Virus record (IMG/VR): IMGVR_UViG_3300036781_000838
Coordinates: 1-64,000 of that record
Length of the DNA: 64,000 nucleotides
Reading direction: 5' to 3' (one strand)
Source of the DNA: a virus
Made by a program: the position numbers and the translations under genes. The notes beneath the pieces are model-generated. The model ran no database searches. It worked only from the letters and a program-made list of their open reading frames with translations, and had not been told where the DNA came from. Positions 14,575 to 62,938 of this stretch are shown piece after piece; position 1 is the first letter of the stretch, and every line of letters begins with the position of its first letter.

Positions 14575-16200
14575 ATGCCTACACCAGTATTAAACAATGG
14601 CCTATTCCTGCGAGATGTGGAACTGCGAGCAGGCTCACATTTAGATTCATATCACCTGATGAATATGCTAGGTGATGCGGAACCCACCGACATGGGTCCG
14701 ATTGATCTATGGGTGATGGCCCAGAAGGTAGAGATGCCGCTTTACCAACTATCCTCTTTTAATGGAAAAAATATTCAATATGTCGATAATGCCAAGGGAG
14801 AATGGAAGTGGCAAATTCCGATTACCGATGAACTTCCCTATGTCGTAGAAGACATCGAGCCGAGTAATATTACTAAAGGTATTGATGGCCACGAATTCCG
14901 GATTAAATACAATAAGAAAGTATTCGGTCATGGTGAGGTGATCACCTACGACAAAATGAACGGTATTCAGCTCTACATCACTGACGAGGATATTCTACCG
15001 GTAGGCGATGGTTATTTATACACTGTCCGGATCCGCAACAACGACTCCTTTAAGTTCCTGGATAATCAGTTCCTGAACAACAAGACCAGGTGGTTCCGTC
15101 TTACTTCGAGCATTGGAGAATATGGCCAGCGGTACGCTGATCTGACCGTAGAAGCAGGTTACAGGGAGTTTTACAACTTCGTCGGTAACGAAAGTGCTCA
15201 CTTTGAGTATTCCATCAGTTCCAAAGCTGAATTAATGCTCCGGGGTGGTGTCCGTGCTACCGGTGCCCTGGCGGTGAATGAGATCTGGAATGTGCATGAT
15301 AAGACGGTACTGGATCCTTCCATTACCCGTATTGAGCAGCTTGCTGCCAAAATGGGGAAAGACTGGATGAAAACGGCCCTTTCCGAAGGTAAGTTATCCC
15401 GATCCTTTGTCACCAAACTCGAATCAGCCGGCTTATCCAAGATCACCCAGGATATTGAAAATGACCTGATGTGGGGACAAGGTGGCGCCATCCAAACCCA
15501 GGGACCAGAAATTCTGAGAGCTTCCGTTGGCTTATGGAAACAGCTTGACAACTCGTACAAGCATATCTATAACATGGCCTCTTTCAACCTGGATATGTTT
15601 GAAAGTGAGATCAACAACTTTTACTATGGTAAAGTTGACTTGGTAGGCCCTGATCCCAAGCGGCAGATCATTGTTCAGACCGGTAGAGCGGGGATGAAAA
15701 TGGTGAATGAGGCAATCGCTAAAAAGGCGCTAAGCCAAAACCTTACGACCCAGTCAACCGAAATCGGGGCTATCAAGATGAATCCGTCAAACATGAGTTT
15801 GCACTATGGATTCTCTTTCACCAGCTTCACCATTCCGTTCATCGCCAATGTGCAGTTTGTTTACAATCCTGCCCTGGACCCGGTTAATGCGAATGAAATT
15901 GAAAATCCGATTATCAACGGCTACCGGTTATCTTCTTACTCGTTCATCATCTTCGATATCACGGACGAAGGAAACGATAATATCAAGCTCCTGCGTAAGT
16001 CCTGGGATAATGAGCTGAGGTGGTGGTACATCAATGGAAAATTTGACTACCAGGGTCGTACTTCCGGATTCCAGAGTAGCGGCGGCAACTTCGGGTATAA
16101 AGTACAAATGGAGAAACCCAAAGATGCCTTATGGGTTAAAGACCCGACCAAAGTGCTGAAAATAGTAATGCGAAACCCCATCACAGGAGGATCGCTGTAA
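14575..16200 (+). CDS. Major capsid protein
   Basis: 541 residues, matching crAss-like major capsid proteins in length and in patterns such as SYHLMNMLGDAEPTDMGPID (residues 23-42), WKWQIPITDELPYVVEDI and the C-terminal KDPTKVLKIVMRNPITGGSL. These proteins adopt the HK97 fold with an inserted domain and form the icosahedral shell. No obvious N-terminal propeptide is visible. The gene follows the scaffold-like gene after a 33-base gap containing TATCCTAAG and is closed by a strong hairpin, which may protect the 3' end of the most heavily used message. Confidence 0.88.
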   Translation: MPTPVLNNGLFLRDVELRAGSHLDSYHLMNMLGDAEPTDMGPIDLWVMAQKVEMPLYQLSSFNGKNIQYVDNAKGEWKWQIPITDELPYVVEDIEPSNITKGIDGHEFRIKYNKKVFGHGEVITYDKMNGIQLYITDEDILPVGDGYLYTVRIRNNDSFKFLDNQFLNNKTRWFRLTSSIGEYGQRYADLTVEAGYREFYNFVGNESAHFEYSISSKAELMLRGGVRATGALAVNEIWNVHDKTVLDPSITRIEQLAAKMGKDWMKTALSEGKLSRSFVTKLESAGLSKITQDIENDLMWGQGGAIQTQGPEILRASVGLWKQLDNSYKHIYNMASFNLDMFESEINNFYYGKVDLVGPDPKRQIIVQTGRAGMKMVNEAIAKKALSQNLTTQSTEIGAIKMNPSNMSLHYGFSFTSFTIPFIANVQFVYNPALDPVNANEIENPIINGYRLSSYSFIIFDITDEGNDNIKLLRKSWDNELRWWYINGKFDYQGRTSGFQSSGGNFGYKVQMEKPKDALWVKDPTKVLKIVMRNPITGGSL

Positions 16201-39693: not shown

Positions 39694-42618
39694 ATGCCGA
39701 GTTACATGGTGGGTGCCAAAGATGCTTTTGTACCCACTCAGCTTTACCACCCCGATTTTGATGCTATCAATGGATTATTAAGGCTTAAGCAGTCTCAATA
39801 TGACCAGGGGTTTAATGCCGTGAAGTCAGCGTACAGTTCGATTTTAAATGCACCGATTACCAACCAGGAGAACCAGGTCGTCCGGCAGAACTACCTTAAA
39901 GATGCCCAAGAGAAACTGAAAAACCTTTCATCGGTAGATCTTTCCTTAAATAAAAATCAGATAGCTGCTGAACAGGTATTCCAGCCATTTGCCAACGACA
40001 GTGAGATTGCGGCCGATATGGTAAAAACCAAGGCTTTCCAAACGCAGTTCCAGGTGGCTGACAATCTGAGGAATTCCAAAAAGATAGAGGATCAGGCCCG
40101 GTATTGGGATACGGGAGTGCAATACCTGCAAAATGGACTGGATACCTTGCGCACCGCAAAAAGAGGGGATGGGTCGATACAGCGGGTAGAGAGTCGCAGG
40201 TATGTCGATTATGTTGACCCGGAGAAATACCTCGCTGACGAGGCGCAGAAGGACGGGTTAAAAATTGAACGGCAAACTTCGAACGGACAATATAAGCTGA
40301 CCCGAATTAACGGTGATGAAGCTGTTCCCTTATTTGAAACATGGGCAAAGTCAAAACTAAGCGGGAACAATCAAATTAATGATATGTTCCGGGTCCAGGG
40401 TACCACCCTGTATGAAAATAGTGTAAATAACCTGGTAAACCATGGGATGGATGAGCAGAATGCAAAGTCATCGCTGGCTGAAAATTATCTTGCAAGACAG
40501 GCCAATAGCTACAAATCGACCTATGATAACCTGACCGCCTATTTAGCTCAACTACAAAAGGATAGCAGGATGGCTCGTGAACTATTGAACGATCAGCCTT
40601 CTGAAGAGAACTTAAACAGTTACAAGGCTAAGCTGGCACAATTGGATAGCACCAACCAAAGCTTGGCTCAGTACGAAAAATTATATAAGTCGTTAAGCGA
40701 TAAAACTGGTAAGGATTACCAGGATAATTATAAGTCTATTTTAAACAATGGAGAGTCCTTCTTTGCTGAGCATTCCCGGGATGCTTTTATCAGCAACTGG
40801 GCACGCGGGCGGGCTTCCAACTCCAGTGTTAAATATGATATCGATCCTGGCTTCAAATTAGAAGAATCCATGAAAAAGGAGATGGAGATCCTTGAATTTC
40901 AAAAGGCAATGACAGATGAGCGGGTTTCCCATGTTGTCAATGGCGTTGCCTACGATAAAAGTGGAAAACCACTTGGGCCAGCCAGTTCTTTTGGGAATGT
41001 GTCTTCAACAGGAAGTACTTCAGCCCAGGCCAAACAACAGGACATGGATACCCCTATCTATGTTGGGCTAAATACCTACGGAACCAATGGTGCTTCCAGC
41101 TACAACCGCTTCGTGGCAGCCAAGCAGAATGCGTTGAATGATTATGTAGACAACGGGCTTAATTTCATACAAGGCATGAGCCATAATTACGGCGGGGACA
41201 ATATTCAGGTAATCAGTACTGGGTTGCTATCCGAATTAAAAAAACAGTTGACTACCGGCCAGGTTGCCTTAAATGCCCCAGAACTACAACAAGAATTTAA
41301 GCAATTGCAGGGAGCTGGTATTATTCCCCAAACACTTAATTATGGTGCTTCTCCTACGCAGACCTACCAGGCCATCAAAAATTATTACTCTGATATCCTT
41401 ATTAAACAGGCTAAAAATGGCCAGGCAGATACCCAGATGATAGGACTTGCTGCCCGGGAGGAACGCATAGATAAACAGTATAATAACCTGAAGAAAATTG
41501 AAGACACGGAGCTGACCAAAATAAAAAATAATCCAAAATATAAGGGGCTGATTGAAGATGATAAAATAGTTGACCTGGGAGAATACATAAAAAAACAGGG
41601 ACCTGATATATCTGATAAAACAATTAACCAGCAATATGAGGACTATCGCCAGGTTCAAAACCAAATACTAGACCCCATAACAGGCCAGGCAGCTCACGTC
41701 ATTAGCAGGGACGCATTTCACCGTGAAATTATTGCGCATGCCACCCAGCAATTTAAGGACGAGTACGATAAAAAAGTAGAAGGGTTTAAGGCTGATTTTG
41801 GTAAAACGAGTTATGCCAAAGACGAAAACGCTTATATCGCCCCTACCATTCGTTTCAATACAGACCGGAAAGGGACTGAAGACAAAGCGCAGAAGATAGC
41901 TCAAATGGCGATGGCCGATGACAATTTTACTGAACAGGATATTAGTAAAAATGGGATCACCCCGGTTAATATGGATCAACTGGAATCCCTGGGTGCCGAC
42001 AAGAAAGAAGTAGCCGGGTTTCTTCAGTATGCGCAAAAAAATGTGGCTGATATGATCTCCGGGGTGGAGGTAAGTAAGATCGGGACCAATGGAAATCCTA
42101 TGGTACGGCTGGTATTTGATAAACAAACGCTCGATGAATATCGAAAGGCAAAAACGGGTCTTTTCAGCGATGCAACCGCAAAAGCCCTTGGGAAAGGAGT
42201 AGAAATTGAACTTAAAAACCCCCGGGCGCTCGATGCGCAAGGATTGGATCTTGATTTTACCCCTTCTTCTCTGGATATGCTTGACCTTACCCTGAATGGG
42301 AAGGCTTCCGCTCCCCAAATATTAAAGCGGGCTGGCTTTGATTATTCGGTAGAGCCTTCGTTTGATAAAAAGAACCTGCTGGTAACTTTTAAATATAACC
42401 GGTTTGAGAAGGGTAAACTGGTACCCGGCTCCTATAACCGGTCCATTCCCGTGGCCGGCATCAGCTTAAATGACGTTGAGAATAACCTGTACAGCAGCGC
42501 CATGGAGATTTACAGTGGCAATAACCAGGCATCCACCCAGTACTTCAAAGCAAACCCACAGGTCACCAAAGAACAAATTGCAGCAATAGAAAAACAGTTC
42601 AATTACCCTAAAAACTAA
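39694..42618 (+). CDS. Putative internal virion (cargo) protein, 974 aa
   Basis: Mostly helical, rich in Lys, Gln, Asn and Asp, with long coiled-coil stretches (about residues 40-100 and 250-330, and LAAREERIDKQYNNLKKIED near 585). The start YMVGAKDAFVPTQLYHPDFDAI is followed by LLRLKQSQYDQGF, a pattern shared by crAss-like large cargo proteins next to the RNA polymerase. It ends two bases before the GTG of the giant gene. Probably packaged in the head or tail and injected with the RNA polymerase; no catalytic motif is seen. Confidence 0.65.
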   Translation: MPSYMVGAKDAFVPTQLYHPDFDAINGLLRLKQSQYDQGFNAVKSAYSSILNAPITNQENQVVRQNYLKDAQEKLKNLSSVDLSLNKNQIAAEQVFQPFANDSEIAADMVKTKAFQTQFQVADNLRNSKKIEDQARYWDTGVQYLQNGLDTLRTAKRGDGSIQRVESRRYVDYVDPEKYLADEAQKDGLKIERQTSNGQYKLTRINGDEAVPLFETWAKSKLSGNNQINDMFRVQGTTLYENSVNNLVNHGMDEQNAKSSLAENYLARQANSYKSTYDNLTAYLAQLQKDSRMARELLNDQPSEENLNSYKAKLAQLDSTNQSLAQYEKLYKSLSDKTGKDYQDNYKSILNNGESFFAEHSRDAFISNWARGRASNSSVKYDIDPGFKLEESMKKEMEILEFQKAMTDERVSHVVNGVAYDKSGKPLGPASSFGNVSSTGSTSAQAKQQDMDTPIYVGLNTYGTNGASSYNRFVAAKQNALNDYVDNGLNFIQGMSHNYGGDNIQVISTGLLSELKKQLTTGQVALNAPELQQEFKQLQGAGIIPQTLNYGASPTQTYQAIKNYYSDILIKQAKNGQADTQMIGLAAREERIDKQYNNLKKIEDTELTKIKNNPKYKGLIEDDKIVDLGEYIKKQGPDISDKTINQQYEDYRQVQNQILDPITGQAAHVISRDAFHREIIAHATQQFKDEYDKKVEGFKADFGKTSYAKDENAYIAPTIRFNTDRKGTEDKAQKIAQMAMADDNFTEQDISKNGITPVNMDQLESLGADKKEVAGFLQYAQKNVADMISGVEVSKIGTNGNPMVRLVFDKQTLDEYRKAKTGLFSDATAKALGKGVEIELKNPRALDAQGLDLDFTPSSLDMLDLTLNGKASAPQILKRAGFDYSVEPSFDKKNLLVTFKYNRFEKGKLVPGSYNRSIPVAGISLNDVENNLYSSAMEIYSGNNQASTQYFKANPQVTKEQIAAIEKQFNYPKN

Positions 42619-42620
42619 AA

Positions 42621-45600
42621 GTGCCCGACTTCCACAGTCTTTACAATCCTGACCTTTCATCCGCCCCAGTACAAATAGCTCCTCCTGATCTGCACCCGGT
42701 ACAAGATCCGTTCCAGGGATATAATCCTGACAATGGTATCAATCACGTTGATGCTGCCTTGTCTACCCTGGATAAAAACCTCTTTAAGCCGACGACGGAT
42801 AGAATTCTCCAGCCCGTTGGCTATGATGCCGACGCGTTAAATGCAGATAGGTATAGGAAGTCGGATTATTTCGGACAACTGGGATTTAACCCCTTTTCAA
42901 ATAATGAAGAGCGATATGGTGACCGTCAATCGAACTTCAATAAGTTAGGAAGCGCTTTTGGGGGAGCCTGGCAACTGATTAAAAATCAGTTTGTGGAGCA
43001 AGCTGGTTCGTGGGGGGATACCCTCAACTTTTTCAAGGACAATAAATCAGCCTTTGAGGAGTCAGATTTCGATGAGATTAATAAGCACCAAAGGGAACTC
43101 TTCACCGATCATGCCATTTTTGAAACGGCAGCGCAGCGGGATAGTATCTGGAATTTCAACACGATTGCCAATACCATCCAGCAATCAGGCTATGCGGTAG
43201 GCGCCATATCTGAGATTGCTGCTGAGGAGTTAGCCCTATCGCTACTTACTGCTGCGACTTTTGGAGGTACCAGCGAACTACAAGTGGCCAGGTCTGCTAA
43301 GCTGGCAGCATCAGTAGGAGGTGTCTTGCGTAAAACTGAGCAACTCGGGGAAGCGCTTAATACCGCCTCCCGTCTACGGAAGGTATTTGAGACCGTCAAT
43401 AAAGTGAATCCACTGCTGGACAATACCCTTGAATTTGCAGCAAACCTGAAGAATATTTCCAGGGCTGAAAATATTGCTGCCGGTGGCAGTAAGTTAGGTA
43501 ATCTGCGTACAGCCGCAAGAGGGTTTGGCGCTTTCTATCGGGATGTAAGAGAGTTCAACGCTGCTGTTGCAGAAGCAAAATCGGAGGCCGCAAGTTCCTA
43601 CCAGGATTTAAAAAGCGTACTGACAACTCAGTATAAAAAGGACCACGACGGTAACGACCCGGTAGGAACTGATGCTCAAAAGATCCAGGATACTGCCATG
43701 GGCGCTGCCCAAACCAACGGCGTATCGAATACCTACCTCATCATGCTATCCAACAAGATCGGCATGGGGAATATCATGGGTGGTTTCAAAGGGCTTAAAG
43801 ATTTAGAAGAAAGTGCCGAAAGTGGCATACTAAGGTTTAGTGAAAAACAGGCGGCAAAGACCGGTGTAAAATTGGCAGATGCTGCCAGCAACAAATGGTT
43901 GGCATTTAAACAGAATTTGTTACGCACTCCATTTAGTTACTTAAAGACTAACCTGGACGAAGCGTTACAAGAAAACCTACAGGATGTTTCCCATGATGCA
44001 ATTCAAAACTATTACCAAGCTAAATACAATGACAACAAAGGAGAACCTGTTAAAAGTATTGCTGATTATATTACTGCTGCTGCAGCTAACCAGTTTCACG
44101 TTCAGGGCGCAAAAACCTTTATTTCCGGTTTTTTAACGGGGGCAATCATCGGTCCCGGGGAATACGCTATCGAGAAATCAGGGAACATAAAACAATACCT
44201 GACTGATAAAACCGGGTACCAACAACGGCAGGCAGAAGTAAAACAATCCCGTAACGAGATTATTGACGCTGGCAATAAGATCTGGAAAAACCCGCTCAAT
44301 TTCGACTATAAAACGGGAGATGTGACCCTGCAGGCTAACTTCAATACAATCCTGAAGCAGGCTGCCCAGACCAATAATAAGGAAGCATTTTATGATATAA
44401 AGGACGATGCCTTGCGGCATTTTATCTTAACCGGAATTCGGTCTGGTGCGCTCGATAGCTTTAATAATCGTCTTAAATCTTACACGAAAAACCTGTCACC
44501 GGAAGAATTTACTACTGCTTTTGGTATAGAGTATAACGAGAAGAACCAGGGAGCCGTAGTGAACCAGGTCAATGCATTTGGTGAGCGGGCCAGTGAGATC
44601 AAGGAACTCCACGAGAATATATCCGCTGATCTTAAAAATCCTTTCAACCCCTTCCGGTTCACTCCGGGTGAGCGGATCATAGGAAACCCACAGTATGTAA
44701 AAGAAGCATTATCCTATAAAGCCTGGAATGATGCAGTAGATAATTATGTCTTTACCAAGAGTTATTACCAAGATACCATCCGGGGTCAGGCAAATATATT
44801 GTCGTCATTTAGAAATAAGGCTGGATTTAAAGACGCCAATTTCAATGATATCTATTTACTGACTTCAAAGGAACACCTCAACGCGGAGATTGATAATCTG
44901 CAAAAGGAGGTTAAAAATCTACAGCCCGATAAAGGAGATGCCGGCGCGAGGACCTTAAACACCCAGAAGCGTGACCGTTTAGCGGTTTTAGAAAAATATA
45001 AAGGACACCTGGAAAAATGGTCTGAAAGTTTTGATAAGCATTCGACGTTGCCGGTGGGTGACCAACGTACCAACGCCTTCAATGAAAGTTTTGATGCCTT
45101 TAAACAACAAACTGCCCCCTTATTTGGTGAGTTTATCAACAATGAGCTAAAAGCTACCGATAAAGCCCAAATCAGCAAGGACAATGTGTTAAAGGGGTTC
45201 GATTCACTGCACAACTACATGAAACTGCAGAAGCAGTCGGGTATTATCCTGGATAAAGTGAACCTGCTCGCTGACCCCGGAAATTTCTCCAAATTCTTTG
45301 CTGAACACGACAAAGCCATCAAAGGGGCGTACGATTTCAGTACGGCTGTTCAGGAAGCGACCGGGCCTGCTGACACTGCAACTGTACATTTTAAAGATGA
45401 GAAAGGAAACGACCAATCCCACACCTTCACCGTAGGGGAAACCTATGTGGGAAAAATGTCGCAGCTGGAGAAATACCGGGGGAAAGGGAAAACGGCTACC
45501 CAGTTTAATAATGATAAGATCAAAATAGCGGCTATTTCAGCAGATGGTAAGACCATTTCCATTGCCCTTAATGGGGAGCCTGCAGTTGATATGGATGCCG

Positions 45601-48600
45601 AAGAAGTAGCGAAATTAGCCAGGGACCACAACTGGAAGGAATACAGCAAACTATCACCGATACAACAAACGTATCTCTCTTTAAGGAACAAAATTATTAC
45701 CTACCGCCTCTTGCAAAGAGACAGTAAAGGACTCCCGGTGAAAGATGCCAAGGGTCAGTATGTGCCCCAAGATGTGAAAGGAAGGGTCAAGCTCAATGAA
45801 AAAAAGGACGGTCTTTTATTCGCTTATGGTAATAATACCATTGAATTCAACCCCAAATATGTCGTCAACCAGCAAGACTTGTCTGAATTACCAACGGTGC
45901 AGCAGCAAGCCCTAAAGGAGCAGCAGGACCGGATTCAACGCAATTTTAAAGCGCAAGTTTCCATCTTCGAGGAAGCATTTAAAGACACAGAATCTAAGTT
46001 AGAAGAGCAAAAAGCATTGACCCGGGCCAACCAGGAAGAATTTACAAAAACAACCGAAGATCTCGGTGATTTAAAAGCTCATCTGGACCTGGTTATTGGT
46101 GAACTGGAAAAGAATCCATATAAAGGGATCGGTAGAAGATCAAATGAAAATAAGGCGCTTACCGAACTAAAGGAACTCCTGTCAAAACAGATAGGGGAAA
46201 AAAACCTTTATCTTCAACGGTTAACCCAGGAACAGGAGGTATTACAGCAGTCGTATGAAACCCTCAAGAAGGCAAATGACCTTTACGCTCAGGCTTTTTT
46301 TGAGTTGCAGGAAAATGAAACGCCTTTTGACAAGGGCAATCAGCAAAATATTTATGATAGTACCCAGGGAGACCTTACGGAAGCTGCAGGAGAGCAGGTT
46401 AATAAAAGGTTGTCAGATGAGCAGATTGATGCCTTAATCGAGGATACCCGGGCAGAAGTGGAACTGATCCAGGAGCGCATTGTGGTGGTTCATGATCTGG
46501 TGACCACTGCAGAAAAGGCCCTTCGCAAAATTGAGAAGTTTGATGATATCATAAAGGCGGTTTCTGAAATAACAGACAAGCGTCAACTCATCACTTATTT
46601 ATCGACGCTCAAAGGGCAGTCGGACGACCCTGAAAAACGTTCTATCTTATCGGCATTAATAAAGGGACTCAATAAAGGAGATCTCGGGTTTGAGGCTCAA
46701 TTTATATTGGAAAAGGCAGCTATCCTCAAGGATTCGAGGAAGGAACTGGCTGATTTACTGGAGAACGCAGCTCAGGTGCAGGATAAATATGACCGGCTAA
46801 CACTTGCCCGGGAACAAAGGGCCAAAATAAATATCCTGCAGCAGCGGGTTAATTATTTAAAACAGGTCCAGGATGCTATCAGCACCGGGTATGGTAAGAT
46901 TGTTGCCAAACAGTCGCTTACCCGGCAAGCCCATCTTACCAAAGCAAAGACTGCAGGAATCGCCCAGGAACTCCATGATTTTGGGGATATTATGTCTACC
47001 AGCCCTGTTATTGTTTCTACGGAGAGTCCATTCTTTGATGATATCCATAAACCCCGGCTAGACCAGGTTGGACTATTCAAAACTGCAGACAGGCATTACC
47101 TGAAGGATACCGATCCAGAGCCTACATCGCCGCAGGCTGCCCGTTTCTTCAAATTCAGCGAAAATGTGACTCCGAACGGAGCCTATTATTTCCAGGTTGT
47201 CCATGAAGGCAATGATGCCTATGGAATCCGGGTGCCAGGTATTTATAAAGATGATATCAAGGTAATTGTTGTAAAAAAGGATGGTATAGTATACAAACCA
47301 GTTGGGGTCGATGGAATTTACCTGGATGCGCCACATAAAGATAACCTGGTATATACCTCCATTCATGGTAATGAGCAATTACTGGATAAAAGCCCTACTG
47401 AAGCCCTTACCTGGGTCAAAGAGAACTTTGCTACCAAATCCATGACGGATGAGGATATTATAAATAAAATTAATGAGTTTAAGACCTTCCGACAGGTAAT
47501 CAAAGATAAAATTGCCCACGGGCAACCAGTTTATTTAACCATAACAGACAAATCCATCGGCATTCAATCAAGAGAGCCGTTGGATGTTAATACAAAGCGA
47601 CCCCAGGAGTTACCCTTGGAGGGACGCCTGATCGCACCTGACAACTCCGACTGGGTCCATATAAAACATCCTGATGGAACACCTATTCACCTGGAAGTAT
47701 CCACTACTGGATCTGTATTAAATAAAAAGGTCAAAGCCGGCCGAATAGCTTTAGTAAAAGATGACGGTTCCATATTCCAGGTTTACAATCGTCAACTTAA
47801 TGGCGCAGAGAAGGCAAATATCATAGGAATCATCAAAATGATCGCACCCCTGATGGGGCGGAGGTACCTGGATAAAGAACGTCTTGCGGAGATTGATTCC
47901 TTAGCAAAGGCTGGGAAGATATCTCCTGACCAGGCAATTCATTTGTCCAATCCCCTTACGGAATCGGAACAGGATAGGTTTGACAAAGCCATCAACTATT
48001 TAATGGGTGTTGTCTACTGGAGGCAAGCAAAAGAAGGAGAAACAGTAGGTAAGGACCAGTTCCGGGTGGCCAAGGGGATGTTATACCGCGGCGAAATGGC
48101 TGTTGCGTTTAATCCGGAAGAAATTGAAAAAAACAAGGATGCCTTAATGGAGGGGTTGTACCACCAGGTCAATAATAAAAAGGTCGGGGATACAGCAAAT
48201 GTCTTTTATGAAATGACCGTGCGGGAGGAGCAGGTTGCCGAAAAAAAATGGGATAATTATCCTCATTACCTTTTGGATGGATCCGCAGGGCGTGTGCCAC
48301 CTATTTATACCAACGTCAAACCGTTTGTATCCAAAACGGATGTTTCCAGTACGCAACTAAGGTCAGTTTATTTGACCTACGGCTTTAATGCTGAATTTAC
48401 GGCCGCGCCGGTGGAAAATAGCAAAAGTGATCAAAATTCGGGAGAAACAAGGGTTTTTACCGATCCGCTGGCTATTCCCAAAGAGCAGGGAGCGCAAATT
48501 GCCTTTGTTCGGAAGAAAATCGATAAAACTACTGACCTTAATGTCATCGCACAATGGGACGGCACCCGGTTCAAAGTTGTAAAACTAATCGACCAGAATG

Positions 48601-51600
48601 GCCAGGATTTTTCAGATCGCAAAGATATCATCGAAAAGAATGAGGATTATATCAATGCAACGATAAGTTCCCTTGAAACCAATATCAATATTCCCGACGC
48701 TTATGATGCAGAACTAAACTCATTTAAAACAGTCTACCACCGTATAGAGACTTACAACGGGCAACCTACGCAACCAGGAGGTTCCCCTGGAATAGCATCT
48801 GAAGCTACAACTGGGACGTCCGGTTCTGCGAGGAAGAAAGATATCTTGGATAGGGTTTTATCCGTAGCTGATACCCCAGAAAACTACCATATTTGGTCCA
48901 ACACCCGGGACGGACAGGATCGCCATCTGTTGGGAGAGCAAATACAATTTGCGATTAATCAATTGCTGTCTGTAGATCCTGCCAAACTAACCAAAGAGGG
49001 GATAGCTGATTATTTAAAAAATATTAAAGCCTTTCAGTCAAAGGATATTCTTGAAAAGGTCACGGGAATTCTCTTAAATCAGCAATTAGAAGAAGCGTCA
49101 ACGGACACTTCCGGTAATACCTACTCCCAAGCTCAGATAGATACGCTGATACAACAGGCTGTTACGACCGGTATTACTGATATTATAGATGAAAATGCAC
49201 GGCTGGCCCTTACGGATGACCCAAAAGTAAAAGAGGACATTGAGGCATTTAAAGCCTGGATGAAAGAACGGCTTCCCCAGGTCCCTGTTCACAAGGTGCT
49301 ACACCTGATCAATGGGCGTAACTGGGGACAGTTCATCAAGGGCGCTATTCAGATATTCCAAAATGCAGAGCAAGGAACAGGTTACCATGAGGCTTTTGAA
49401 GCGGTATGGAATGCCTACCTGACCACAGAGGAGCAGCAGGATCTGGCGGGAGAGTTCAGAGAGCGGGTTGGGGCCTTTACTAATCCCTTTTCAAAAGCTA
49501 CGAAAAGTCATACCGAAGCATCTATGTATGATGTGCGGGAGATGCTAGCGGAAGAATTCAAGGATTATGTTGCTAAGGATCAACCTATAGTTCGGCCAAA
49601 TTCGCCAGTTCGCAATACGATTTTCAGGCGCCTGTGGAATTTTATCAAGCGCATGTTGGGGCTAACTGTCAATGATAACCAGGCATTTAATTCAAAAATC
49701 AACCATCTTTTCAATAAAATTGATACTGGAGACTATGCTGACGCTATCCCGATCACTACATCCAGTGAACCTTCTTACCGGGCTTTGGAGGGGAATACGG
49801 TTGAATTTACCCAGGCTGTTATGGAAGGGGTATCAGCTATATTCTTTTCAAAACTATATGCCTCCCAAAACAACATTGAGGCGCTGTTTAGCAAGGGAAG
49901 TAATGCTAAACTCTTTAATGAGTTATATGAGGGGACCAGGGGAACCCTGGAGCAGTACTTTAATGCCCCCATTAACAGTATAGTAAAAGTATTGACAGAA
50001 AAGGGAATTACCCATGATAAGATAGCGGCTGAAGTGCTTAAATACACCAATGGCTCAGATTACCGTCAAAAAAAGTCAGTACTGGACCGTTTTAACGGAG
50101 AAGTGCTGACCGAATTCAAAAAGTTTATTGGGCAATTTGGCTTGCAATTTAAAGAGGTGAACAATGAAGAAGGTGTAAATGACGAGCGGGGAGAGGATAA
50201 TATCAACGAGATTGAGGATAAGGAACAAACAGCTACAAATGCCCTGGGCATACGCGAGTCTATCTACGTTGATCCGCGGAATATGACAAAAAGCACTGTT
50301 CGGCTGCTGATTGCTTCTCTTACTGCGGATGAATACAAACCCAACAGCAACCAGGTTCAAATAAAGAAAAATGGCTTGGGACTGCCCACGTTAGAAGATT
50401 ATGGGCGGAAAATTAATATACTGCTCAATGAGTTGCATGGTGTTGTTCCGGTATATGAAAAGGGGAAACGAGTTGAAGCCATAGATCTGATGTTCAGGAA
50501 GCTGGACGAGCGATTTAAAAATACAGACGGCAGGTTTAAGAAGGGGTTTGAGTGGATACAAAAACTGAAGTCCCGGCTGAAGTTTGAATTAAATGGTCAA
50601 AAACTGTCTTTTGAGCACTTGACGGAGGATGAGATCCGGTTGTTAATAGCATTTGAATCTTCGTTTACCAACAACAAAAACCTTCCTTTTAAGATACTGA
50701 TTGGGGAAGGCGGCTATCTTACGGCTGTAGATCCGGTGGTGGTTACCAACGCAGCCAAAGTAAAAGAACACTGGCAAAACAGCCTGAAGAGTACGTCCAG
50801 ACAACTTAAGTCCAACGAGGACCTGGCGAAAGCTCCATTGACCTATATAGGCGCCGATGGTAAAATAATGTTTAATACCCGGTCAGAATCCATGGTCCGA
50901 TTACTTTCAGCCTCTACTAATCAGACCAAGCTCGATGGTTTAAAAAAAATGGGCATCAACTTCACCCAATCTGACGCGGAATTATTAAACTCGCCCGATA
51001 TCACCAAAGCGATTGCTGAGTCTTTTAACGGGATAAGCTATGCGTTCAGGGAGGGGCTAATCAGCGGATTTGATGATCTCTTTGGAAAACAGGTTGTCAA
51101 TGGTCCCATTTCTTCCCTTCTGGCTATTGAACTGGACGCAACTGCTGAGGACAATATTTTATCACACCAGAATGCGGCCGGGAAGCAACAGTTCTCCATT
51201 ACCCTCCCTTCAGCAGTATCGAATACAATCAACTCCTTAAAGGGAGTAGATAATATTTCCGACTTTATTTTATCAAACCCCCAGTATGGCTCCGTCTCGG
51301 CAAACGGTGAGATTCTGCTAAATCCCTACCAGGCGAATAGTCAATTGCTGAAAACGGACGGGATTTTATTCGATAAAAACGGTAAAAAGAAGCGGGATAT
51401 CGACTACCAGTTCATTCTTGGAATGTCCTTACTCACGGACAATGAAGGGGACAATACAGACGATCTGAAATACCCGGATAAAATTGTCCAGGAGATATAC
51501 CACCTGCTGAATGGAACCTATTATACAGTGATCAATTCTGACAAGAGTAGTGAATTCGGGTTAAACATGGGTCATTTTATTTCCTGGCAGGACATCAAAA

Positions 51601-54600
51601 AGCCAATTGGAGATAATCTATTTATAACCGGGGCGTATAAGAATGCAATGGTCGATGAAATAAAGGCGGCGCTCTTTGAAGCGCACAACCCGGCCGGCAT
51701 TCAATATTACTCCGATGGAGTAACATCCATGGGCCATTTCAGGGACATATTGAATTTTATCCCAAAAGAGAATAAAAGTAATAAATATTCCCTCCTGCAA
51801 AAGGACTTTATCTCCCGGGTAATGATGGGAAAAGAATCTCCAGAAGATTTTGTCAACAGATCTCAGGTGGAAGCATTACTAACGGACTACCTGAAAAACC
51901 AGGTGGATACGCATAAAAAATACCTCGTCGATCTGGGTATTGTCAACGAAGAACCTGTTAGTGCCGGCATTACAAACTATTCTACAAATGCCTTTAGTCA
52001 AGAGCAATTGGACAAATTGGGAGTTGGGGATGCCCGAAAAATGTCAGAGGTAGAGTATACGAACCTGGTCAAGTTTATGACCATTAACCGGCAAATCGGT
52101 GTTTTTGAACAGCACAAATTATTATACGGTCACCCCGCTCTTTATAAGGACCTGGCCAAGCGCTCCAACGGGATCAATTCTCAAAAGGAACTGATGACCG
52201 AAAACAGGCAAATACTTACCTGGATGGATAAGCACATGGGCCGATTGGATGGTAAAATCAGGGGGGACCAGGAGGCGTCCACCATCAGGTTTGTATCATA
52301 TAAGGATCCGGTAGTCATATCGCTATACCATAAGGATATAGCTAAGGGAATGTACGATTCCCTGATAAAAGAGCTGCCAAAGCATACCGTTGAACAGTTG
52401 ATCGGAGCAACATTCGATGACAAAGGCGCCGTGGGAACAGTGGAAGGAGGGAAGGGGACCTATATAGATGCCTATATCAATGCCAATGAACCGGACGGCC
52501 AGGCATATGTGATGATGGATTTTTTCCGTGATATGCTGTTTCAATCCGGCAAATTGAGTAAAGAGCAGTCAGCACTATGGGAATATGAAAGGGCAGTAGA
52601 GATCAATGACCGGAGCAATCCTAAAAGTGACTATTATAAGGAATATACAAAACAAGATATCGACCAGGCGAGGGCGCTGCTGCAGGGAGAGAAGCCCAAT
52701 GGCGTACTACAGACATTAAAACCGCAAGGATTTGGATATCAGACCACCGAAGGCATTACGCATACCACGTTTTTAAAGCACTCTGTTTTTCCGCTTACCT
52801 GGACCCGTGTAAGGGATCAGCCTAATATGGCAAAATTGTACATCAGTTCTCAGGGTAATAAGATTGATGTCATTGGCTTCGAGTCAGGAGAAAAAGTAGG
52901 AAATGTGCTTCAAAATGGCGGCTTTGTGCAGCTGTACGGAGAGGACGGAACCTTTAACAGTGATCAGTTGCCAATACAGGAAATGTATTCCAAATATTAC
53001 GGCATACAGGTGGAAATGGCTGCAAAGACCAAAGAGAAGGTAGTTATGGGCACGCAGATGCGCAAATTGATTTTGTCCAACCTGCCGGAAGAACTTAGAC
53101 CTGTAGCTGATCAATATTTCAAGGTGTTGGAGGATCTGATGGCCCTCGACAAGAAATCACTACTACATGAAGTCGGGTTAACAAGATTGCCGGATGGTAG
53201 TTACCAAACCGATAACCTGGAGGGACTTGTCAATACCCTTCGTCAGGAGGCTATTTCAAGGGAACTGCCGGATAATGTCATTGATATGCTCTCCGCGGTA
53301 AAGACCGAGGCCGGCGACCGGTTAGCATATAAATTTGATGCTAATCCCATCCGCGAGAAGATTGACAATATTCTCAACGCAATTGTAGACTCAAGGGTCA
53401 TTTCCCAAAAAATGTTTGGTAAAGCCTCCGTCCAGGTTGCGTCCACCCTGTGGGAGAAAAATCCCAGGAGTTTTATGTACCTCAAGGAAGGTATATGGAC
53501 TTCGACCGAAGGAATAGAAAAGGGTAGCCTTACCGCCGAAGAGCAAAAATCAGTACGGATGATATCCTCCGACCTGAAATTCTATACCCGGGAAGAACCT
53601 TGGATGGAAGTATTGCTTCCCCATTATTTCGAGGGGATGCTGCCAACAGATATCAATCTCGCCGATATCGATCCCCGGCTGCTCGCTGCCATCGGATTTC
53701 GTATTCCGACGCAAGGGATGAATTCGATTGATAATATCCGCATAAAGGGCTTTCTTGATCCGTCTATGGGTGATGTCGTGGTAGTGCCTTCTGAAATAGT
53801 AGGTAAATCAGGTTCTGACTTTGATATCGATAAATTAAATATCTATTTGCCCAATTACACCATTGAAACAGTTAATGGTAAAAAATCCATAAAGTATGTG
53901 GATCCAGCCGGGTCCACCAAGGAAGCCCTTCAAAACCGGTTAATACAGCTCATGGGCCAGATCCTGTCTCATCCGGACAATTACCGGCAGCTCATCGTAC
54001 CCAATGGAGCCGAAACCCTTAAAGGACTGGCGGACGAAATCAGGAGACTCAAGGGTCTTGATAAAGAAGGCGCCGGTCTAACCAGGTTAAGTGAGTGGAA
54101 AACGATGGTCGAAACTCGGGAGCGTTACATCAGCGGAAAGAAACTGGTGGGGATTGGCGCACTCCAGATTACATCACATACCGTTAGCCAGTTGGCGGGG
54201 ATACAATTAACCGGGACCTATAAAGCCCGGGATGGCCAGGAGCTACCCATTAAAATAAAGTTTGATCACAACTCAGAGGCGGGTAAGTTCTACCTGACCG
54301 CGGTGATGGATAAAGGCAACCAGTACATCTCTGAATTGCTGTCGGAGGCGCTTACCGGGTTTGTAGATGCAGCCAAGGACCCGTTTATATTTGACCTGAA
54401 TTTAAATCTGCAGACCGCAGCTACCTGGTTCTATCTGCAAAAATTGGGCGTTCCTGTCAAGGAGCTGGCGTATCTACATACTCAGCCATTAATTGAGCAA
54501 TACTTTGCTGAACAAGGGAAGAATGAATCCTACGTGAACAAGGCCAACGATACTGAATTGGTTAAAGAAATGGTCATCTTTAAGGTGGCAGATCCCTATT

Positions 54601-56189
54601 TCCAGAAGGCGTTTGATACCCCCAAAAGTCTATATCAACTCGGTCAACCTGATTCTAATGGCAAATGGAGAACCAGAAAGGAGTATTTCAAGCTTAAGGA
54701 GGAGTTGTTGTCAAAAGTTAACCGGTACCGTGGGGCAGTAGAAAAATATGCGGAGACGGATTTAAGGAATAATATTCAAACTCAGAACAAGGCCGGTTAT
54801 CGGTTAACAAAAGAGGATGCGCTAAAACAGTTGGCCTTACTATACGATTACCTGGATTACCAGCAACAAGCAGGCTACCTGAGTAATTTTATCAATGCCA
54901 TATCATATGATACTGCTAAGACAAAAAACATCATTGAGAACAGGATACAGGATTCTACACTACAGTCTGCTTACAACGATAATTTTGTCACCCGGGATAG
55001 TATCAACCGCGTGTTCAGTACAACTTTCTTAGGGGCTGTCAAAGACCAGAAGCAGGATATAGCCAATATGTTCAAGGACTTTTTTGTAAGTCTCCATCCC
55101 AATGCACAACCAGCGTTTGAAAAGGTTATTGACTTAATTAATAACCCGGCCCTCAATATGACCAAAGATAAGAAAGCCGAAGTGCTGAACCGGTACCAAA
55201 ACTTCTTTATCACCTCCCTGTTGCATACCGTTAAATTCAAGGCTGGGACCGATGAAAGGTCCCTCAATGAATGGTATGGTATGTTCTTTGGCGATCGCTC
55301 CCTTCCAAAGCAGCTAAAGGAGTTCCAGGATAACCCGCGATATAAGAACAACCTTGCCCTAAAACAACTTTTCCCCCTTATCAATAGCGACAAGAATGCT
55401 ACTGATAATATTAAGCTATTTAATAATAGACTATCCAGTTATGAGATCAATGTAATCTCTGAAGCATTAATGAATTTAAAGCAACAGGCGGAAGCAGAAA
55501 ATAATGCGGAACTGGGAAAATTTGTAGGAAGACTTGGGGTGTTTTCCATCTTACAATCGGGAGTTCAGGCCAGCCCTATCACATACACGAAGATTTTACC
55601 CATCGAAATATACTCAAAAACGGTGGGAGATATCCTGGATCGGTTTACCGGGCAGGATATAGATAACCTGGACCCTACGCTAATGTGGAAACAGTTCTTC
55701 CAGAACAATTGGTACAATAGTCAATTGGTTCCACGAGTTAAAAAGTTCTCTCATGAACGCAACGGTCTGATTTCTATCTCAGGAAATTTTAGGACTGCCA
55801 ATTATGATTACGTGTCTACCCGGGAACTGAAGCCAGAATATGCAGGGAAAGTAAATGAGAAAAGAGAAGACCTGGTCAAACAAAAACGTTGGGATGATTT
55901 ATACAATTATGGGCTTTTTGAGCGGATCCCGATAAAAGATGAAAACGGGAGTGATTTAACCGATGATCAGCCGGTAGTCTATTATAGACCAATTAACCGC
56001 CTGGGTAACAGGATGAGTATGACAGAAACTTACGGACTAAATAAAGAGTCAATACTTCCCAAAAATGAGCCCTTCGATGAGAGCCAGTATGAGGAAGCGG
56101 TTGAACAAATTCAAAATAAGACCACAGATACCAATAAACCAAAGGACGAACAAGAGGATATGCCTTGCGAAGGCGGCACACCTTTTTAA
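42621..56189 (+). CDS. Giant virion RNA polymerase fusion protein
   Basis: 4522 residues from a GTG. The N-terminal half (to about 2200) is helical and coiled-coil cargo. Near 2250 is a zincin-like domain, GTGYHEAFEAVW (H2256, E2257), followed by EMLAEEF (about 2307-2313); the usual third ligand H is E2260. The C-terminal part carries the crAss-like single-chain RNA polymerase: FESGEKVG (about 3420-3427) for the first double-psi barrel lysine, RIPTQGMNSI (about 3693), then GSDFDIDK with D3733, D3735 and D3737, the DxDxD metal-binding loop. Such enzymes are packaged, injected and transcribe early genes. The known polymerase of Cellulophaga phage phi14:2 is about half this length, so this looks like a fusion of cargo, peptidase-like and polymerase parts. 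Confidence 0.85.
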   Translation: MPDFHSLYNPDLSSAPVQIAPPDLHPVQDPFQGYNPDNGINHVDAALSTLDKNLFKPTTDRILQPVGYDADALNADRYRKSDYFGQLGFNPFSNNEERYGDRQSNFNKLGSAFGGAWQLIKNQFVEQAGSWGDTLNFFKDNKSAFEESDFDEINKHQRELFTDHAIFETAAQRDSIWNFNTIANTIQQSGYAVGAISEIAAEELALSLLTAATFGGTSELQVARSAKLAASVGGVLRKTEQLGEALNTASRLRKVFETVNKVNPLLDNTLEFAANLKNISRAENIAAGGSKLGNLRTAARGFGAFYRDVREFNAAVAEAKSEAASSYQDLKSVLTTQYKKDHDGNDPVGTDAQKIQDTAMGAAQTNGVSNTYLIMLSNKIGMGNIMGGFKGLKDLEESAESGILRFSEKQAAKTGVKLADAASNKWLAFKQNLLRTPFSYLKTNLDEALQENLQDVSHDAIQNYYQAKYNDNKGEPVKSIADYITAAAANQFHVQGAKTFISGFLTGAIIGPGEYAIEKSGNIKQYLTDKTGYQQRQAEVKQSRNEIIDAGNKIWKNPLNFDYKTGDVTLQANFNTILKQAAQTNNKEAFYDIKDDALRHFILTGIRSGALDSFNNRLKSYTKNLSPEEFTTAFGIEYNEKNQGAVVNQVNAFGERASEIKELHENISADLKNPFNPFRFTPGERIIGNPQYVKEALSYKAWNDAVDNYVFTKSYYQDTIRGQANILSSFRNKAGFKDANFNDIYLLTSKEHLNAEIDNLQKEVKNLQPDKGDAGARTLNTQKRDRLAVLEKYKGHLEKWSESFDKHSTLPVGDQRTNAFNESFDAFKQQTAPLFGEFINNELKATDKAQISKDNVLKGFDSLHNYMKLQKQSGIILDKVNLLADPGNFSKFFAEHDKAIKGAYDFSTAVQEATGPADTATVHFKDEKGNDQSHTFTVGETYVGKMSQLEKYRGKGKTATQFNNDKIKIAAISADGKTISIALNGEPAVDMDAEEVAKLARDHNWKEYSKLSPIQQTYLSLRNKIITYRLLQRDSKGLPVKDAKGQYVPQDVKGRVKLNEKKDGLLFAYGNNTIEFNPKYVVNQQDLSELPTVQQQALKEQQDRIQRNFKAQVSIFEEAFKDTESKLEEQKALTRANQEEFTKTTEDLGDLKAHLDLVIGELEKNPYKGIGRRSNENKALTELKELLSKQIGEKNLYLQRLTQEQEVLQQSYETLKKANDLYAQAFFELQENETPFDKGNQQNIYDSTQGDLTEAAGEQVNKRLSDEQIDALIEDTRAEVELIQERIVVVHDLVTTAEKALRKIEKFDDIIKAVSEITDKRQLITYLSTLKGQSDDPEKRSILSALIKGLNKGDLGFEAQFILEKAAILKDSRKELADLLENAAQVQDKYDRLTLAREQRAKINILQQRVNYLKQVQDAISTGYGKIVAKQSLTRQAHLTKAKTAGIAQELHDFGDIMSTSPVIVSTESPFFDDIHKPRLDQVGLFKTADRHYLKDTDPEPTSPQAARFFKFSENVTPNGAYYFQVVHEGNDAYGIRVPGIYKDDIKVIVVKKDGIVYKPVGVDGIYLDAPHKDNLVYTSIHGNEQLLDKSPTEALTWVKENFATKSMTDEDIINKINEFKTFRQVIKDKIAHGQPVYLTITDKSIGIQSREPLDVNTKRPQELPLEGRLIAPDNSDWVHIKHPDGTPIHLEVSTTGSVLNKKVKAGRIALVKDDGSIFQVYNRQLNGAEKANIIGIIKMIAPLMGRRYLDKERLAEIDSLAKAGKISPDQAIHLSNPLTESEQDRFDKAINYLMGVVYWRQAKEGETVGKDQFRVAKGMLYRGEMAVAFNPEEIEKNKDALMEGLYHQVNNKKVGDTANVFYEMTVREEQVAEKKWDNYPHYLLDGSAGRVPPIYTNVKPFVSKTDVSSTQLRSVYLTYGFNAEFTAAPVENSKSDQNSGETRVFTDPLAIPKEQGAQIAFVRKKIDKTTDLNVIAQWDGTRFKVVKLIDQNGQDFSDRKDIIEKNEDYINATISSLETNINIPDAYDAELNSFKTVYHRIETYNGQPTQPGGSPGIASEATTGTSGSARKKDILDRVLSVADTPENYHIWSNTRDGQDRHLLGEQIQFAINQLLSVDPAKLTKEGIADYLKNIKAFQSKDILEKVTGILLNQQLEEASTDTSGNTYSQAQIDTLIQQAVTTGITDIIDENARLALTDDPKVKEDIEAFKAWMKERLPQVPVHKVLHLINGRNWGQFIKGAIQIFQNAEQGTGYHEAFEAVWNAYLTTEEQQDLAGEFRERVGAFTNPFSKATKSHTEASMYDVREMLAEEFKDYVAKDQPIVRPNSPVRNTIFRRLWNFIKRMLGLTVNDNQAFNSKINHLFNKIDTGDYADAIPITTSSEPSYRALEGNTVEFTQAVMEGVSAIFFSKLYASQNNIEALFSKGSNAKLFNELYEGTRGTLEQYFNAPINSIVKVLTEKGITHDKIAAEVLKYTNGSDYRQKKSVLDRFNGEVLTEFKKFIGQFGLQFKEVNNEEGVNDERGEDNINEIEDKEQTATNALGIRESIYVDPRNMTKSTVRLLIASLTADEYKPNSNQVQIKKNGLGLPTLEDYGRKINILLNELHGVVPVYEKGKRVEAIDLMFRKLDERFKNTDGRFKKGFEWIQKLKSRLKFELNGQKLSFEHLTEDEIRLLIAFESSFTNNKNLPFKILIGEGGYLTAVDPVVVTNAAKVKEHWQNSLKSTSRQLKSNEDLAKAPLTYIGADGKIMFNTRSESMVRLLSASTNQTKLDGLKKMGINFTQSDAELLNSPDITKAIAESFNGISYAFREGLISGFDDLFGKQVVNGPISSLLAIELDATAEDNILSHQNAAGKQQFSITLPSAVSNTINSLKGVDNISDFILSNPQYGSVSANGEILLNPYQANSQLLKTDGILFDKNGKKKRDIDYQFILGMSLLTDNEGDNTDDLKYPDKIVQEIYHLLNGTYYTVINSDKSSEFGLNMGHFISWQDIKKPIGDNLFITGAYKNAMVDEIKAALFEAHNPAGIQYYSDGVTSMGHFRDILNFIPKENKSNKYSLLQKDFISRVMMGKESPEDFVNRSQVEALLTDYLKNQVDTHKKYLVDLGIVNEEPVSAGITNYSTNAFSQEQLDKLGVGDARKMSEVEYTNLVKFMTINRQIGVFEQHKLLYGHPALYKDLAKRSNGINSQKELMTENRQILTWMDKHMGRLDGKIRGDQEASTIRFVSYKDPVVISLYHKDIAKGMYDSLIKELPKHTVEQLIGATFDDKGAVGTVEGGKGTYIDAYINANEPDGQAYVMMDFFRDMLFQSGKLSKEQSALWEYERAVEINDRSNPKSDYYKEYTKQDIDQARALLQGEKPNGVLQTLKPQGFGYQTTEGITHTTFLKHSVFPLTWTRVRDQPNMAKLYISSQGNKIDVIGFESGEKVGNVLQNGGFVQLYGEDGTFNSDQLPIQEMYSKYYGIQVEMAAKTKEKVVMGTQMRKLILSNLPEELRPVADQYFKVLEDLMALDKKSLLHEVGLTRLPDGSYQTDNLEGLVNTLRQEAISRELPDNVIDMLSAVKTEAGDRLAYKFDANPIREKIDNILNAIVDSRVISQKMFGKASVQVASTLWEKNPRSFMYLKEGIWTSTEGIEKGSLTAEEQKSVRMISSDLKFYTREEPWMEVLLPHYFEGMLPTDINLADIDPRLLAAIGFRIPTQGMNSIDNIRIKGFLDPSMGDVVVVPSEIVGKSGSDFDIDKLNIYLPNYTIETVNGKKSIKYVDPAGSTKEALQNRLIQLMGQILSHPDNYRQLIVPNGAETLKGLADEIRRLKGLDKEGAGLTRLSEWKTMVETRERYISGKKLVGIGALQITSHTVSQLAGIQLTGTYKARDGQELPIKIKFDHNSEAGKFYLTAVMDKGNQYISELLSEALTGFVDAAKDPFIFDLNLNLQTAATWFYLQKLGVPVKELAYLHTQPLIEQYFAEQGKNESYVNKANDTELVKEMVIFKVADPYFQKAFDTPKSLYQLGQPDSNGKWRTRKEYFKLKEELLSKVNRYRGAVEKYAETDLRNNIQTQNKAGYRLTKEDALKQLALLYDYLDYQQQAGYLSNFINAISYDTAKTKNIIENRIQDSTLQSAYNDNFVTRDSINRVFSTTFLGAVKDQKQDIANMFKDFFVSLHPNAQPAFEKVIDLINNPALNMTKDKKAEVLNRYQNFFITSLLHTVKFKAGTDERSLNEWYGMFFGDRSLPKQLKEFQDNPRYKNNLALKQLFPLINSDKNATDNIKLFNNRLSSYEINVISEALMNLKQQAEAENNAELGKFVGRLGVFSILQSGVQASPITYTKILPIEIYSKTVGDILDRFTGQDIDNLDPTLMWKQFFQNNWYNSQLVPRVKKFSHERNGLISISGNFRTANYDYVSTRELKPEYAGKVNEKREDLVKQKRWDDLYNYGLFERIPIKDENGSDLTDDQPVVYYRPINRLGNRMSMTETYGLNKESILPKNEPFDESQYEEAVEQIQNKTTDTNKPKDEQEDMPCEGGTPF

Positions 56190-56198
56190 TACCAACCT

Positions 56199-59100
56199 AT
56201 GAATTGCACAACGCTCCCCCACAAAGAATCAAGTTTAAACGCCCGGGAATCACTTTTAAGCAAAAAAGCTATTGATGAAGATGGCCGGATTATATCAGAA
56301 GAGAGATTTCACGACACCGTTGATGAGATAACGACCCAGGCCAGGAAATCCTACCAGGTCGACCGGGGACCTCTTTTTGCCCGCGTTGAAGTTACTCCTT
56401 CATTTGGTGGCAAATATTTCAAAGCAGAACCGAATGAACTTGCTTTTAATGATATTGACGAAGCCCGTAAAAAATTGGCAATCTATGATTCGCAGGAATC
56501 TATTGGATCATTTCGGCAGCCCAGTTCCCGGGACAAAGAAGTGGTTAGTATTGAAGATAAGGTCAACCATTTTCTTTCTTCTATAGGTGTATCCGTTGAA
56601 AAAGTGGATCAATTAACGGATGCAGCAGGAAATAAGCTCGATGCTGTTGCTAAGGCAAGTATGCTAAATAAGATCATCCAGGTTGTTGACGGTAAGGCAG
56701 ATATGACCACCCTGCCGGAAGAAGCAGCTCACTTTTTTGTATCGCTACTAGGGGAGGAAAATGCCTTGTACAAGGCTATGTTCAAAGATATCCCGACGTA
56801 TAGACTTTACAGTGGTGTAGTTCAGCAATATAAAGGTAATAAGTTGTATCGGCGCAGTGATGGTACCCTCAATTTTGATATGATAAAAAAGGAGGCTATT
56901 GGTAAACTGATAGCTGAACATATTCTTGTACAAGGGGTCGGCGACGAATACACAGAATCGATAGCAAAGGCCCAAAAATGGTGGGAGAAAGTGTGGGACT
57001 ATATTACTAAGATATTTGCTCAAAGTAAGGTTAACCCCTTTCAGGAGTCGGCGAAAAGAATCCTGGCAAATCAAGTTCAGGGCCTCAAGAATATCCATGA
57101 GCTGGACTCCACCGATGAGTTTTTACAGGTTGACAATGTTTACAGTCGAATTAAAGCAGACCAACAGCGCATACACCTTGATAATTCTGTAGATCCCCGA
57201 ACAGGAGAGAAACGTCATCAATATACCGTAGATGGCAAAAATGTCAGGGGTTCAGTTACCGAACTGTTGGTAGATAAATGGTATAAAGCCAGGTTCCCTA
57301 CAGACAACAGAACTGAGCGCCAAAAGAACATCGATAGTCTGAAGGCGCAGGAAGGAGATAAGGTCCACGCTGATGCCCAAAATATCATTGAACGCTACAT
57401 CGATGCGAACACCGGTGAACTGCTCACGGTGCCCAGGCCAGTATCCACCATATCAACCAACCAGAGTATTTACACCAAGCTGGAGTCTTATATCGGGGAG
57501 CTTTTAAGGTCTTATCCGGCTGCAACCAAATTTATGGCTGAGGTCCGGATCCATGATGCGAAACGGAATATGCCCGGGAGCATCGATTTGCTGGTGTTAA
57601 CACCAGATGGTGCTGCTGATATTTACGACTGGAAATCACAAGAGGTAGCAAAGGACCAGACTGATTTAAAATGGTTCAAAGAGCCTGCTTACCGGATACA
57701 GTTAGAGGCATACCGTAAAATCCTTACCCAAGAGTATGGTATAACCAGGTTCAACAAGGTCCGGGCGATCCCTATAAAGACAAATTTTATCTACAAAAAA
57801 GAACAGGGCACTTACACTCCCAAAACACTCGCTGATATCGAGGTAGGATCGATCTACCCCGGGCAAATCCCGGAGGATAAGGCATATCTACTACCTGTGG
57901 TCGCCCAGGATGAAAAGACGGGAGATGATAAATTGGATAAATTGATTACCCAGCTAAATACAGTCCTTGAAAAAATATCTCAGCAGCATTTTGACCGGGA
58001 TAAGCGCTATCTGAAGGCGGAGGAACTGAATAAAATCAGGAAGGCGATCCGCGATCTCCAGGTGCGGCAGGATATAGGGACTTTCGTAGAAAACGGCTTG
58101 GCTGAGGTAATGAAATACCAGGACAAGCTGGATAATGATACCGTTACCAAAAGTGATGTGCTTGATTCTATTGATATTCTTTCCGTTTATGCGCAGGCGC
58201 AGTTGCTTTTACGAGAACAACTCAAGAACCTTCGGAAGAAAATTGGTGCCGAAACAGATCCGGTGGCCAAAGGCGAGTTGGAGACACTACAGTCGGATTT
58301 CTTAAAAATGAGCGCCAATAGCAAGGATGTGCTATTTAATATGGAGGAAAAACTGAAAGAAATCGGGGTTCAGATTGCTGAAAAAGAAGGAATATCCAAC
58401 CTGCTGACGGCGGAAAAGAGCATGGACCGGATGAAAACCTTGTTCAGGTCTATTTCTACCCTTCCGACACGCTCTATCCAGACCTTTTATAAACTATTGT
58501 CTACCTCCCAGTCTAAACGAGATTTTCAAATTGACGACCTGAATGAGAAATTGCATCATATAAAGGAGAATGTTGAGAAATGGTCGGCAAGCAAGGGGAT
58601 TAGCAGGGAAAATATGTTTGACGATATTTTGAAAATTAATGCTGATGGTAACTGGACCGGTGACTTCCTGGATAAATTCTCCAAAGATTATTTTGTCACC
58701 AAGAATGAAGCCATTAAAACGGGGGATATCAAGTGGATTTCCGATAACACCACTTTTGACAGGGAACGGTATGAAAAGGACCTGGCCAGTTATAAAGCAG
58801 TGATTGAAACGGTAGCTTATAGCCCCGATCCAGTAAAAAATAAAGAGCGCCAGGATAAGGCGCTGGCTGCGTGGATCAACGCACGGGATGTGGATACATC
58901 CGACTTTGCCAAGCTGAATAAGAAAAACTATTATCTGAAGCCAAAGGAGCAATGGTACAGCAATAAATGGAGCAACCTGCTCAAGGAGGAAAACAAACCC
59001 CTGAAAGAAGCCTTTGACTACTTTCAGTTGCTTAAATCTTTCTCAGATAAGTTGGGGATGATAGATTTTGAAAATGGCTTCATCCCATCAATTCGCCAGG

Positions 59101-62712: not shown

Positions 62713-62875
62713 AATGGTGTTTTTGAGCTAAATGGGTCACTAATTTAAGGTATTAGTTTACTCAAACAAATATTCTGAACCAACCGGATAAATAATTGGA
62801 TAAAATCGAGCGTTAGGTGGATAGAAAGGCCAATTGAGTCTCCTGAAGATATATGAAGTGGAGATCAAAGCGAAG

Positions 62876-62911
62876 AAAAAAAGGAAAGGAAGCCTGGACT
62901 CCCTTTCCTTT
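62876..62911 (-). terminator. Intrinsic terminator of the ligase gene
   Basis: On the minus strand AAAGGAAAGG pairs with CCTTTCCTTT over a 12-base loop and a run of T residues follows. It lies 28 bases after the ligase stop. The remaining bases up to 62713 hold only the leader of the methyltransferase gene. Confidence 0.8.
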
Positions 62912-62938
62912 CTACTAATAATATACAAAGCAATAATC

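Follow-up and report, generated by a model that had tools for sequence, protein, structure and literature searches.

A giant crAss-like phage protein joins virion cargo, an altered zincin-like domain and a predicted virion RNA polymerase

The fusion gene and its neighbours

The window is the whole stretch of DNA that was analysed, 64,000 nucleotides of an IMG/VR virus record (IMGVR_UViG_3300036781_000838) that contains 95,134 bases. On its forward strand, the reading frame at 42621..56189 is open without an internal stop and encodes 4522 amino acids. The other five frames across this interval contain 168–408 stops each, so this is no chance open frame. The start codon is GTG and the N-terminus reads VPDF; the open reading frames (ORFs) of four relatives (L012, L015, L027, and L053) begin with MPDF, and this resemblance makes the GTG start credible. 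Of 80 independent IMG/VR loci, 76 repeat this layout, which thus does not stem from an assembly slip. The preliminary description of this DNA reported an uninterrupted 13.6-kb frame with two motifs, and reading of the ORF and the sequence bears it out: HEAFE occupies residues 2256–2260 (49386..49400) and DFDID residues 3733–3737 (53817..53831). Scans of the whole protein against PHROGs and Pfam gave no useful match.

The protein is a colinear fusion of a cargo-plus-zincin protein, of the type of crAss001 gp47 and phi14:2 g067, with a predicted two-barrel RNA polymerase (RNAP) of the type of phi14:2 g066 and crAss001 gp50. At the cargo end, residues 61–639 (42801..44537) align by hhalign with residues 56–643 of gp47 (Prob 99.7, E 3.7e-27) and with residues 65–511 of g067 (Prob 98.3, E 2.4e-14). 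The proteins gp47, gp49, and gp50 of crAss001 have been detected in virions by mass spectrometry (PMC10172136), and an MS/MS note in the database record marks g067 as a virion protein. These alignments show the N-terminal part to be homologous to virion cargo proteins, in line with the earlier view that cargo resides in the same polypeptide. The zincin-like domain follows at about residues 2205–2321 (49233..49583). Two stretches of low model confidence separate it from the polymerase. One, at about residues 2381–2410 (49761..49850), is a likely old gene border, since by hhalign the separate zincin protein of the crAss001 type ends there; the ends on the RNAP side were unreliable in these alignments, so that all such borders are approximate. 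The other is an acidic linker at about residues 2516–2545 (50166..50255), N-terminal to the RNAP part.

Immediately upstream, on the same strand and at the position of a crassvirus cargo gene, is a gene for a 974-residue protein (39694..42618), whose function is assigned by synteny only. Also in the cargo region is an 852-residue protein (35015–37573) whose C-terminal domain is a phage lysozyme (PF00959, E 1.7e-14), possibly a peptidoglycan-cutting part of the virion. Downstream, also on the forward strand, an iterative profile identifies a 1593-residue homologue of the RNAP-associated phi14:2 g065 and crAss001 gp49 (56199..60980), residues 442–600 of which resemble a PD-(D/E)XK nuclease (PF12705, E 2.8e-5). 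Methyltransferase-like and ATP-dependent DNA ligase genes adjoin the late block on the reverse strand (62104–63835).

The structural genes, also on the forward strand, indicate the phage group. The terminase large subunit (6881..9130, E 1.8e-54) groups the phage with crAss-like phages, its 127 matching records being mainly crAss-like, with the best at 25–28% identity. The portal protein (10451..13183) matches phrog_6547 (E 3.6e-84) and the major capsid protein (14575..16200) phrog_11589 (E 6.1e-33). By these matches, together with a transcription block of large multidomain DxDxD proteins, the phage is assigned to the Crassvirales.

The polymerase part and its fusion among relatives

The last 1522 residues match 140 phage records by tblastn, mostly crAss-like and including phi14:2 g066 and crAss001 gp50. 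A profile built from a 44-sequence alignment (the window protein and 43 environmental relatives) has one convincing match among solved structures, the phi14:2 virion RNAP 6VR4 (E 4.6e-95), which spans chain residues 848–1793 with the DFDID motifs in register. The AlphaFold2 model of the core, residues 3120–4290 (51978..55490), has a mean pLDDT of 88.4 and a pTM of 0.85, and its sole significant Foldseek match in the PDB is again 6VR4 (E 6.7e-32, TM 0.68 by query). The same fold search did not return the N4 RNAP, a T7-like single-subunit enzyme. DFDID is the predicted catalytic metal-binding loop and aligns with the DFDID at residue 1361 of g066. The DFDxD loop and an upstream R-x-P motif, here RIPTQ at residues 3694–3698 (53700..53714), are invariant in alignments of 88 and 44 sequences. 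Profile and model together support assigning the C-terminal part to the crAss-type two-barrel virion RNAPs. The preliminary description had proposed this assignment and named structure prediction and a profile search as checks on it; both agree with the proposal, and the case that would have refuted it, a core with no barrel pair, did not arise. In one relative, cr108_1 (L082:15780–16260), the DxDxD motif of the RNAP gene is split (KAGSD ... DIDKMYL), in the manner of an intron insertion.

Zincin and RNAP parts share one ORF in 76 of the 80 IMG/VR loci, and several of the other four are truncated. Among annotated phages, phi14:2, crAss001, cr128, and Dulem virus 41 have the parts separate, while cr118, cr55, and cr6, listed as Suoliviridae in GenBank, have them fused. 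In a review, crAss-like RNAPs are said to reach ~6000 residues. With examples in Suoliviridae records, in most environmental relatives, and in the literature, the fusion is of a known kind, and the novelty ascribed to it at the outset was overrated. The fused gene of cr6_1 (L086:5532–18734) contains 57 stops under table 11, so a stop codon seems to be recoded in this phage.

Fusion also extends further or stops short. In L042 (1745–18217, 5491 residues, a triple fusion) and L055, the cargo, zincin, RNAP, and g065-type parts lie in a single ORF. In a second lineage, the zincin and RNAP ORF is about 3200–4200 residues long and the cargo gene is apparently separate, upstream. Gene borders thus break and fuse at several joints and move freely between lineages. 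The contig G001 (L036 / L099 / L102) carries a 6385-residue ORF in which two zincin/RNAP units of different lineages are joined. A tandem polymerase was rejected as the likely reading, because the upstream gene and the first unit resemble one lineage only, and the resemblance of the downstream gene and of the sequence flanking the second unit is confined to the other. The second RNAP unit is without close relatives. This suggests a chimeric contig or a recombinant.

Paired substitutions at the zincin-like site

A model of residues 2056–2586 has pLDDT values mostly of 83–97 over the zincin-like stretch and contains strands, an HExxE helix, and a second, partner helix. Foldseek with this model gave no significant match (best E 1.3, with MATCAP, collagenase G, and BepA among the top), and neither did a profile search with the domain against the PDB. 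The predicted zincin fold is supported by its topology and motif.

The HExxH zinc motif is not intact in the window protein, as the third motif residue is Glu rather than His (HEAFE). In addition, the presumed site of the third ligand, which is Glu in gluzincins, is occupied by Arg2306 (49536..49538). Position 2306 covaries with position 2260 and presumably holds the third ligand in relatives. In the 63 sequences with Glu at position 2260, the window protein included, the partner at 2306 is always Lys or Arg (63/63); in the 21 with His, it is always Glu, Asp, or Ser (21/21). A 64th Glu row was left out of this count as an apparently spurious second match in L067. The association has a Fisher's p of 2e-20, a value that ignores relatedness, and for this reason the count of changes on a tree carries more weight. 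On the RNAP tree, the pairings change at least 8 times if switching is reversible, and 19 times if losses are irreversible. Among 12,266 column pairs, 2260–2306 ranks first for covariation, with a z of 12, twice the next score. The pairs L069/L076 and L074/L071 have RNAP cores that are 87–88% identical, yet differ at both positions. All 56 readable sequences of the second lineage have HExxH with Glu.

The covariation suggests contact between the two helices, and a salt bridge between E2260 and R2306 may take the place of two zinc ligands. The domain is most likely a non-catalytic module in the window protein. H2256 and E2257, the first His and the Glu of the motif, are invariant in all forms, including HExxE, which is more than a fully dead site needs; a residual role is possible. 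On balance, we favour the view that the zincin site of giant crAss-like virion polymerases toggles repeatedly, by paired substitutions, between a zinc type (HExxH with Glu) and a salt-bridge type (HExxE with Lys/Arg). If so, the main duty of the domain would be structural or interactive, and protease activity would be optional, lost or regained quickly in evolution. A literature search on the crAss zincin found no paper, and the paired ligand switch is the new part of the finding.

Fate of the chain and comparison with known systems

There is no settled account of how a phage head releases chains of thousands of residues that then work in the cell, and self-cleavage readily comes to mind. In this case, the protease one would look to is probably disarmed in the bulk of one large environmental lineage, and another lineage has it intact. 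The two states provide natural paired test cases, such as L069/L076 and L074/L071, and the relatives provide a module map in which the parts are joined in some phages and separate in others.

The identity of both ends, the phage group, the fusion in relatives, and the altered zinc motif are computed results. Taken entire, they are probably best explained by a packaged transcription enzyme that is threaded whole, with a non-catalytic zincin-like domain that does not cut the polymerase free. By analogy with its homologues, the chain would be packed into the head. It would then pass the tail whole and partly unfolded, like the N4 vRNAP, and would refold in the cell to transcribe early genes with the separate g065-type partner. 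With the putative salt bridge in place of two zinc ligands, the zincin-like domain would not release the polymerase on the way. Virion packaging and early-gene activity have been measured on homologues (PMC10172136; Drobysheva et al., cited in PMC7886860). Cargo of crAss001 needs partial unfolding to traverse the tail (PMC10172136), the 3,500-residue vRNAP of N4 is ejected and has been suggested to travel through as a string of subdomains (PMC12633501), and the 5,002-residue protein of P23-45 is a further threading precedent (PMC10770324). Given these precedents, cleavage is not required in principle.

The preliminary description suggested instead that the zincin-like domain could free the polymerase; the mechanism considered is a cut of the chain in cis. 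The domain does sit directly before the RNAP part, the split gene in phages of the crAss001 type stops near residue 2400, and both some fused relatives and the entire second lineage have HExxH intact. However, if the domain served to separate the polymerase, split-gene phages would be free to lose the motif and fused ones should keep it. The reverse is seen: the split-gene phages sampled keep HExxH, except phi14:2, where the motif is absent altogether, and in most of the window's fused relatives it has changed. The motif is therefore not retained for splitting a fusion. As the window protein and 62 other sequences also have Glu as the third motif residue with a Lys/Arg partner, this mechanism is highly improbable.

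Another phage or host protease might cleave at a linker during maturation, leaving separate chains in virions as in crAss001. In phi14:2 and crAss001 the homologues function on chains of their own, low-confidence linkers are at hand at about residues 2381–2386 and 2516–2530, and the free shifting of gene borders is compatible with such processing. Yet no cleavage site is known, accounts of the N4 and P23-45 giants present each as one chain, and a triple fusion exists, which makes this rather unlikely. It is very doubtful, moreover, that the HExxE form has kept enzymatic activity through some other chemistry or set of metals and acts on the host envelope or on virion proteins, not on its own chain. 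The invariant H2256 and E2257 would suit such an enzyme, repeated switching suggests selection on both forms, and metallopeptidase-like parts also occur in N4 vRNAP and P23-45 gp96; but Lys or Arg at the apparent third-ligand position should repel a cation. To our knowledge, there is no HExxE metallopeptidase.

Whole threading remains the preferred reading. Close parallels to the window protein are the Suoliviridae giants of the transcription block, cr118_1 (4946 residues), cr55_1 (4551 residues), and cr6_1 (4400 codons). Like the window protein, they have cargo, zincin, and RNAP in one gene, followed by a separate g065-type gene. They have HExxH with Glu, whereas the window has HEAFE with Arg; hhalign detected no N-terminal homology of the window protein to cr118 or cr55. 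The g067-g066-g065 genes of phi14:2 (Steigviridae; 6VR4) have the same order, with homologous RNAP and N-terminal cargo, and the structure and activity of the g066 RNAP are proven. Unlike in the window, these genes are separate, and g067 is without an HExxH motif. In crAss001, gp47, gp49, and gp50 are homologous to the window parts and all three are found in virions, but the genes are separate, on two strands, and gp47 has HEAFH. Rudgehvirus jaberico (Intestiviridae) has the same modules, with a zincin gene marked ZnMc in its record. In contrast to the window, its zincin part is separate, and its RNAP gene, at about 4098 residues, is too long for RNAP alone. By length and annotation, that gene is probably fused to a g065-type part; jaberico is not among the listed matches of the g065 profile search.

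Further parallels are P23-45 gp96 and N4 gp50, which, like the window protein, are giant one-chain virion RNAPs with a metallopeptidase-like part. However, gp96 shares its chain with a tape measure protein and comes from a different two-barrel branch, and the N4 RNAP is T7-like rather than two-barrel. A metallopeptidase-like part is thus common to the giants of all three, crAss-like phages (here at 49233–49583), N4, and P23-45 (PMC12633501, PMC10770324), and perhaps reflects a shared need in ejection.
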